A stretch of DNA of 42,318 bases, taken from positions 1 to 42,318 of the forward strand of contig JAJSAH010000008.1 in assembly GCA_024274875.1 (NCBI GenBank), in the 5' to 3' direction. The notes below the pieces were generated by a model, which was not told where the DNA came from, did not search any database, and worked only from the letters and a program-made list of their open reading frames with translations. Positions 30,171-42,318 of this stretch are shown in pieces. The stretch comes from an archaeon. GTDB lineage: Archaea; Micrarchaeota; Micrarchaeia; CAILAH01. The stretch's first letter is position 1. Each line of letters opens with the position of its first letter. A program made the position numbers and the translations under genes.

Positions 30171-30261
30171 GCCTCCGTAGCTCAGCGGCAGAGCGGCCGC
30201 CTTGTACAATAAACAGGTTCAAGCAAGCGGCAGGTCGTGGGTTCAAATCCCACCGGGGGCT
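30171..30261 (+). tRNA. tRNA-Thr (anticodon TGT) with 19-nt intron
   Basis: Acceptor GCCTCCG pairs with CGGGGGC, discriminator T. Anticodon stem GCCGC/GCGGC. The loop reads CTTGTA, then an insert at 30207-30225 (19 nt), then A38, so the anticodon is TGT (Thr, codon ACA) and the intron is at the canonical 37/38 position. T-arm GTGGG TTCAAAT CCCAC. The spliced tRNA would be 72 nt. An A/T-rich box (ataataaaaatatta) lies just upstream. The last 15 nt are copied twice more in the tandem array that starts inside the gene at 30247. Confidence 0.94.
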
Positions 30262-30438
30262 TGCGCCAGCCCGGTTTGCAAAACCTTTCGGTTTTGCCGT
30301 CTCCTCGGTGCTGCGCACCTACGGATCCCACCGGGGGCTTGCGCCAGCCCGGTTTGCAAAACCTTTCGGTTTTGCCGTCTCCTCGGTGCTGCGCACCTAC
30401 GGATCCCACCGGGGGCTTGCGCCAGCCCGGTTTGCAAA
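30247..30438 (+). repeat. Tandem repeat, period 78, carrying the tRNA-Thr 3' end
   Basis: Two identical 78-nt units (30247-30324, 30325-30402) and a third partial unit of 36 nt (30403-30438). Each unit starts with the last 15 nt of the tRNA-Thr gene (ATCCCACCGGGGGCT). The rest is G+C-rich and can form three hairpins: GGGCT/AGCCC, GCAAAACC/GGTTTTGC with a TTTC loop, and GGTGC/GCACC. The array ends about 16 nt before the stop codon of the convergent HD-hydrolase gene. The unit length is a multiple of three and lacks stop codons in five of six frames, but no frame has a ribosome-binding site or natural protein composition, so I treat it as non-coding. Confidence 0.9.
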
Positions 30439-30454
30439 TCCTCCAGTTTGCAAT

Positions 30455-38272: not shown

Positions 38273-38420
38273 TGCCAAGGGGGGGATTTTCAACTGGAAA
38301 CTTTGAACCCCCGACATCCAGATTTCCCGGAGCGCCGTTTAAGTCACAGCCAAACGGCTCATAACTCATAGATAGTTATGCTATGAGTCTGGCGCTCTAA
38401 CCAGGCTGAGCTACCTTGGC
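38273..38420 (-). tRNA. Elongator tRNA-Met (anticodon CAT) with two introns
   Basis: Acceptor GCCAAGG pairs with CCTTGGC, discriminator A. Anticodon stem CCAGA/TCTGG with loop CTCATA + A. A 58-nt intron (38324-38381) lies at position 37/38 and can form hairpins CATAACT/AGTTATG and GCCGTTT/AAACGGC. The T-stem GGGGG/CCCCC encloses 22 nt instead of 7 (38286-38307), so a second insert of 15 nt sits in the T-loop; exon TTCAA can pair with intron TTGAA. Removing both gives a normal 75-nt tRNA. The exact T-loop splice sites are ambiguous by a few A residues. Confidence 0.92.
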
Positions 38421-41843: not shown

Positions 41844-42089
41844 AGCGGGGTAGGGCAGCCTGGAGTGCCCGCCGGGCTCATAACGAGGGCGCTTCCGCCC
41901 CTCGTGCTCCCAGGGAATTTCGCTGACGCGAAATGAAAAAGGGAAACTAACGAGGGCGCTTCCGCCCCTCGTGCTCCCAGGGAATTTCGCTGACGCGAAA
42001 TGAAAAAGGGAAACTAACGAGGGCGCTTCCGCCCCTCAATAATTTTGGGGGACACCCGGAGGCCAGTGGTTCAAATCCACTCCCCGCTA
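41844..42089 (+). tRNA. Initiator tRNA-Met (anticodon CAT) with 171-nt repeat-containing intron
   Basis: Exon 1 is 41844-41882 and exon 2 is 42054-42089. Acceptor AGCGGGG pairs with CCCCGCT, with the A1-T72 pair and discriminator A typical of archaeal initiators. Anticodon stem CCGGG/CCCGG with loop CTCATA + A, and the initiator-type G/C pairs next to the loop. T-arm AGTGG TTCAAAT CCACT. Spliced length is 75 nt. The intron (41883-42053) is at the canonical 37/38 site and is filled mostly by a 67-nt tandem repeat. The exact splice boundaries are inferred by analogy; I did not verify a bulge-helix-bulge fold. Confidence 0.93.
41881..42037 (+). repeat. Tandem repeat, period 67, inside the initiator tRNA-Met intron
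   Basis: Two identical 67-nt units (41881-41947, 41948-42014) and a 23-nt partial unit (42015-42037). Each unit begins TAACGAGGGC, so it carries the anticodon-loop/intron boundary sequence. Each contains two perfect hairpins: GAGGGCG pairing with the CGCCCCTC arm (one extra C), and ATTTCGC/GCGAAAT with a TGAC loop. No open reading frame. Confidence 0.9.
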
Positions 42090-42318
42090 TAAGATATATA
42101 ATTTTACTTTGCTGAGAAGGAATGATTTAGAAAAGGGGAGATACAAAGCATATTAGGGGGGTTGGGTTGAGAAGGGAGGGGGGCAAAGCCCCCAGCCCTC
42201 TGGTGGTTCAAATCCACTCCCCGCTATAAGATATATAATTTTACTTTGCTGAGAACGAATGATTTAGAAAAGGAGAGATACAAAGCGTATTAGGGGGGTT
42301 GGGTTGAGAAGGGAGGGG
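42067..42318 (+). repeat. Direct repeat, period 137, carrying the initiator tRNA-Met 3' end (runs off window)
   Basis: Unit 1 is 42067-42203 and unit 2 is 42204-42318, cut by the window end after 115 nt. Both start with the last 23 nt of the tRNA gene (T-loop, T-stem 3' strand, acceptor 3' strand) and continue with A/T-rich then G-rich sequence. The two copies differ at three positions within the shared 115 nt. Near the end of unit 1 is a strong hairpin GGGGGC-AAA-GCCCCC (about 42179-42193). I see no gene here. Confidence 0.88.

Follow-up and report, generated by a model that had tools for sequence, protein, structure and literature searches.

The hairpin unit of a tandem-repeat intron in an archaeal initiator tRNA-Met gene recurs at other tRNA genes of the same family

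Background

Why should the intron of an initiator tRNA-Met gene be built almost entirely of a tandem repeat, and does such an array bear on how the intron is removed or on how it arose? The question is raised by a locus near the end of a 42,318-nucleotide stretch of archaeal DNA (contig JAJSAH010000008.1 of assembly GCA_024274875.1, phylum Micrarchaeota), the whole of which is referred to here as the window. The host family is taken to be the Micrarchaeaceae from the names of its relatives, and five genomes of this family were sampled.

Results and discussion

The initiator tRNA-Met gene, as read from the bases, occupies positions 41844-42089 of the forward strand. Exon 1 (41844-41882) runs from the 5' end to A37, carries the anticodon CAT at 41879-41881 and ends in CCGGGCTCATA, and exon 2 (42054-42089) runs from A38 to A73 (ACCCGG...CCCCGCTA). 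When folded, the spliced product forms a perfect cloverleaf in which the initiator marks, namely the A1:U72 pair and three G:C pairs at the base of the anticodon stem, are present. The exons, the cloverleaf and these marks bear out the identification, made in the original prediction, of an initiator gene with an intron, which is single and placed at 37/38, a recognised site for tRNA introns. Within the assembly (833 kb in 24 contigs, 89.7% complete), the anticodon-stem pattern CCGGGCTCATAA is found only once, and the gene's description as the sole visible initiator therefore holds for that assembly. Neither ARAGORN nor the Rfam tRNA model detects the gene, because of its insert, and the Rfam group I intron model has no match in the window, where only tRNA matches were obtained.

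The intron (41883-42053, 171 nt, or 67+67+21+16 nt), delimited from the sequence, Tandem Repeats Finder (TRF) and a relaxed bulge-helix-bulge (BHB) motif, lies on the same strand and was resolved into its parts by repeat finding and folding. The first 67-nt unit (41883-41949) consists of a hairpin H1 (41883-41905), the sequence CTCCCAGG and a hairpin H2 with the arms ATTTCGC/GCGAAAT; the second unit (41950-42016) is identical in sequence, and the partial third unit of 21 nt (42017-42037) is H1 without its closing GT. A unique 16-nt tail, AATAATTTTGGGGGAC, completes the intron (42038-42053). TRF reports a repeat at 41881-42037 with a period of 67, 2.3 copies, a 100% match and a score of 314, confirming that the tandem-repeat intron is real. 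Each 67-nt unit forms two stem-loops and folds better than 200 of 200 shuffled sequences (z of -3.4); of the two hairpins that had been called perfect, the second is so, but the first has a bulged C. The view that such an intron is unusual also holds, in that no interruption was present in those initiator genes outside the host family that were read and had a recognisable exon 2. The array lengths given here are taken from short-read MAG assemblies, and the initiator intron may be under-assembled in copy number, because its array of about 157 bp is close to the length of a short read and the contig ends 265 bp past the intron within another tandem repeat. This adjoining repeat (42066-42318, forward strand) has a period of 137 bp and 1.8 copies, is cut by the contig end, and contains the T arm and 3' acceptor strand of the initiator tRNA together with downstream DNA; a 51-bp piece of it recurs in the T-loop region of a further tRNA gene (G000:C7:8171, G000 being the host genome).

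The 67-nt unit is present at three places in this genome, the other two being T-loop introns at position 59/60 of tRNA-Arg(TCG) and tRNA-Tyr(GTA). The tRNA-Arg(TCG) intron (C20:22896-23053) holds 2.3 copies (TRF match of 98%) that are 96-97% identical to the unit in the window, and the tRNA-Tyr(GTA) intron (C16:3177-3290) holds 2.3 copies of a shorter, 56-nt version; the former gene also has an anticodon-loop intron and the latter an anticodon-loop insert. The orientation of the unit relative to the tRNA is identical in all three genes. Both units of the Arg array on C20 share two bases that differ from the initiator array (GGT for GGG and CTAACG for CTGACG), and the complete units of the initiator intron are identical to each other. 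Such array-specific variants suggest that the units of an array have been homogenised or that they were duplicated only once the copies had separated. The dispersal of the unit in other tRNA genes, which goes beyond the original prediction, is a more important fact than the initiator array itself. Elsewhere in the window, an elongator-type tRNA gene (CAT) on the minus strand (38273-38420) has an anticodon-loop intron and a short T-loop intron that shares the BHB motif described below and has no hairpin element.

With the 134-nt array and a plain core pattern as queries, matches were obtained in three related genomes, Candidatus Micrarchaeum SulCav_AS07-7 (G001), AlinenSediments_bin-3077 (G002) and Micrarchaeota SKW51 (G004). 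Among 295 genomes, the plain core pattern matched four of the family and one other, G094, where the match looks like coding sequence and is probably due to chance. A broad scan with the core pattern gave three contigs of Micrarchaeota of the family, the remaining titles being almost all bacterial; judged by these titles, the bacterial matches were taken as chance occurrences in GC-rich genomes. One further archaeal match, upon inspection, showed no obvious tRNA, and no exact match to the core was found in viral contigs. R1, a covariance model built on the 32-nt core, detected the element in five of the five family genomes and in none of 36 other genomes of the class. The element is thus restricted to the family in the genomes sampled.

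A second covariance model (R2), built from eight sequences, yielded 25 sites across all five family genomes when each array was collapsed to a single site. Twenty of these are tRNA-associated, lying in tRNA introns, in pieces of tRNA genes or right beside the 5' end of a tRNA, and five lie away from tRNA genes, one of which is probably a chance match. The tRNA-associated sites comprise introns at 37/38 (initiator Met, Gln, Cys), T-loop introns at 59/60 (Arg, Tyr, Gln, Asp, Pro, elongator Met), sites abutting tRNA 5' ends (Ala, Leu, Pro and others) and two sites in tRNA fragments. Assuming that 3% of the DNA is tRNA-related, the binomial probability of 20 in 25 is about 1e-26, and it is about 1e-16 (13 of 18) upon leaving out the sites that were used for R1 or found by similarity. 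In G001, the intron at this position of the initiator gene measures 302 nt and again repeats the core, but its loop holds other hairpins; in G002, the intron at 37/38 of the initiator gene measures 36 nt. The Rfam tRNA model finds only 8-13 matches per genome in G001-G004 (9 in G001, at 93% completeness), which suggests that most tRNA genes in these genomes are heavily interrupted.

The element consists of a covarying stem of about 23 nt (consensus nnRGGGGCGCATCCGCCCCYnn), followed by CCCAGG(TA) and usually by a second hairpin. Pairing in the stem is maintained in 98.6% of cells across eight distinct cores, and four of the nine pairs are changed on both sides. The stem covariation is 0.488, as against 0.248 in shuffled alignments (none of 500 reaches 0.488) and at most 0.242 with the partner strand slid. 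These values support the view that the stem is kept by compensatory changes, at the RNA or the DNA level, in what are few and related sequences. In the introns whose boundaries were read by eye, the foot of the stem lies directly at exon 1 or very close to it. Elements beside tRNA 5' ends have the opposite orientation, and their foot, again as judged by eye, faces the tRNA at a distance of 0-4 nt; in one tRNA-Cys intron of G002 the element is reversed with its foot towards exon 2. A rule of orientation, with the foot facing the tRNA, can tentatively be proposed from these boundaries, which were judged by eye without a scored control. A reversed copy is also present between the 16S rRNA and tRNA-Ala genes on contig C49 of G001, where the tRNA-Ala itself has two long introns.

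We consider it likely that a hairpin element specific to the family, which spreads from one tRNA locus to another and is duplicated on site, has colonised ordinary BHB introns of the kind removed by an EndA of the ARMAN-2 type. The starting state would be a BHB-type tRNA intron at the canonical position 37/38, the body of which was taken over by the short element of the family. This element would have spread at the DNA level, perhaps by recombination or gene conversion, mainly into introns at 37/38 and 59/60 and into the sequence immediately preceding the mature tRNA, and would have been duplicated on site. Each unit would fold on itself and the splice sites would therefore still meet, such that the three-unit EndA could cut out the whole 171-nt array as one intron and the exons could be joined. 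The hairpin looks like a small sequence spreading among tRNA genes rather than a source of alternative RNA products.

An alternative that retains some plausibility is that whole introns move between tRNA genes by gene conversion or recombination, as in Thermoproteales, with the hairpin merely a passenger. The arrays of the initiator and Arg genes agree in unit sequence and in copy number, and the introns of the initiator, Arg and Tyr genes have homologous 5' ends in spite of residing in different tRNAs and at different positions. Their 3' tails, however, are specific to each site, and the movement of whole introns leaves unexplained why the element should occur outside introns, reversed at tRNA 5' ends and in intergenic DNA. 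We therefore hold this possible, though doubtful.

Replication slippage at tRNA genes that form cruciforms, with no dedicated mobility, would also account for part of the data, the arrays being scars that are kept because EndA removes them. All eight scoring tandem arrays in 92 kb of DNA around 33 tRNA loci overlap a tRNA gene, where tRNA bodies make up about 4% of the DNA, though three of the loci (four arrays) entered the count because of the finding itself and the unbiased count is four of four. The breakpoints fall in tRNA loops, namely the D-loop and the T-loop at 59/60. Some arrays repeat the tRNA from about position 59/60 of the T-loop to the 3' end, as in tRNA-Thr (30247-30442) and two Gly genes, and an array on contig C20 of the host genome (C20:424-584) repeats a tRNA from its 5' end to the D-loop. 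Slippage does not explain, however, why one covarying core should be shared by different genera and different tRNAs, and we give this reading only a modest chance of being correct.

The tRNA-Thr(TGT) gene is followed, within 30171-30442, by a 78-bp tandem repeat in 2.5 copies, which contains the tRNA from A59/T60 of the T-loop to the 3' end plus hairpins, and Gly-type tRNA genes (loci L025, L033 and L041) have 84-bp arrays in which the 3' end of the tRNA is repeated. At the start of contig C20 (locus L022, 380-671), a 5' fragment of a tRNA, up to the D-loop, is repeated 2.4 times together with a hairpin directly before the intact gene. On contig C21 of G004, a tRNA 5' fragment is duplicated, with the element inserted after the GG of the D-loop and an intact copy adjacent. 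Direct repeats inside introns are also found in the initiator and Tyr genes of G001, in the Gln gene of G003 and on C21 of G004. Several contigs end in arrays of tRNA ends, and tRNA loci therefore probably break the assembly.

Bacterial REP/RAYT and MITE elements are short dispersed palindromes that sometimes occur in clusters, and the hairpin element is similar to them in these respects. Its mobilisation in the same manner, by a transposase acting in trans, would agree with its short, hairpin-bearing and dispersed form, with its conserved flank and with the GTAG that precedes many of the second hairpins. Yet GTAG is not general, the restriction to tRNA loci is strong, and no gene for a Y1 transposase (TnpA/RAYT) was found in the five family genomes, whose assemblies are incomplete. 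The position of the element inside introns that are predicted to be spliced is a further difference from these bacterial elements, and overall we regard such a mechanism as unlikely.

The preferred reading, colonisation of BHB introns, is supported by the geometry of the splice sites. All seven of the element-bearing T-loop introns tested have a central helix of 4 bp, bulges of 3 nt and exon boundaries at TTCRAA^ and ^T60. The motif combines the T-stem, a central helix of TTCR with TGRR and the bulges AA^N and NA^T, and gives the product TTCRAAT; the introns of Arg and Tyr conform to the strict 4-bp-helix/3-nt-bulge motif. The genes differ in their inner helix, which is long in some (9 in Pro; 5 in Arg, Gln and Asp) but weak in Tyr and elongator Met. 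In the Asp intron of G004, GAAGG at the intron start pairs with CCTTC at the intron end and not with its own local arm, CCCTC, a single case that fits selection on the inner helix of the BHB. The MFE fold of the tRNA-Arg precursor is a full cloverleaf with a BHB and self-folding units. Counting against the preferred reading, the BHB of the initiator is relaxed: the GGG of the unique tail is predicted, from constrained folding and a BHB scan, to pair with the CUC of nucleotides 32-34, which supplies three of the four central pairs next to an A-G mismatch, with an inner run of 5. Imposing the cloverleaf on this precursor costs 5-7 kcal/mol relative to the free fold.

The genome encodes a splicing endonuclease that matches archaeal BHB tRNA introns, its EndA being similar to that of ARMAN-2 (4fz2) over the full length with an E-value of 2e-124. 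The ARMAN-2 EndA accommodates noncanonical introns (PMC12397907; PMC4033280). Short T-loop introns of 23-48 nt with the same BHB motif, but lacking the hairpin element, are found in 11 of 117 genomes of the class, as against none with a reversed-pattern control, and the element was therefore probably added onto an older and wider intron habit.

The original prediction had held that the repeats, by providing several near-identical 5' junction contexts, could lead to alternative or multimeric circular intron products. Every unit does start with TAACGAGGGC, which resembles the exon-intron junction. However, a scan of the repeats for the pattern of outer helix, 4-bp helix, 3-nt bulges and inner helix found no splice-competent motif at the internal TAACGAGGG junctions of the initiator precursor, these unit junctions being without an anticodon stem and without a central helix. 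The units of the initiator are closed hairpins when the cloverleaf and the central helix are imposed, and in tRNA-Arg the best strict BHB is the outermost one, which removes the entire array. The absence of internal BHB motifs leaves alternative splicing at internal units without support, and we attach very little credence to this explanation of the repeats. That the arrays are artefacts of assembly, as contig ends within them (the end of C8 and the starts of C7 and C21) might suggest, is scarcely credible in view of the array-specific variants at three loci and of the same element in independent MAGs from other studies.

Relationship to known systems and implications

The introns resemble the archaeal BHB introns associated with the epsilon2-type EndA of ARMAN-1/-2 in their positions at 37/38 and 59/60, their 3-nt bulges and central helix and the presence of the endonuclease gene, but differ in having a body made up of tandem copies of a dispersed hairpin element and, in the initiator, a relaxed BHB. 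Transposed introns of the Thermoproteales type are recognised by the occurrence of nearly identical introns in several tRNA species of a single genome, and such introns are present here. In Thermoproteales, similar introns in different tRNAs were interpreted as transposition in work of 2010 that is described in PMC4033280 and PMC4090602. In contrast to those introns, the present ones belong to another phylum, the part they share is a covarying hairpin unit that is tandemly repeated, and this unit also occurs on the 5' side of tRNAs and between genes. In Caldiarchaeum, the disruption of a tRNA gene has been tied to an integrated mobile element (PMC3293823); both cases involve the gain of an intron and repeats of part of the tRNA at a tRNA gene, but no integrase-bearing element is seen here and the units measure 56-137 bp. 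A limited literature search found no earlier description of hairpin elements in the tRNA introns of Micrarchaeota. Transposition of tRNA introns is already known from Thermoproteales, and the hairpin-element version proposed here is what is new.

This lineage offers a recognisable covarying unit at many tRNA sites, a tentative rule of orientation and array-specific variants. Given such a unit and such variants, the gain, movement and duplication of introns could be dated by the comparison of strains. Introns laden with the element also help explain why tRNA finders miss such genes, as seen with ARAGORN and Rfam on the initiator and in the low Rfam counts of the four relatives. On a more speculative note, a mobile hairpin of the Micrarchaeaceae, as RNA or DNA, might insert foot-first at sites of tRNA processing (the EndA sites at 37/38 and 59/60 and the mature 5' end), survive through its removal from transcripts by EndA, and so drive the gain of tRNA introns. 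We put this forward tentatively; if true, the insertion of a mobile hairpin at processing sites would be a driver of tRNA intron gain in archaea.
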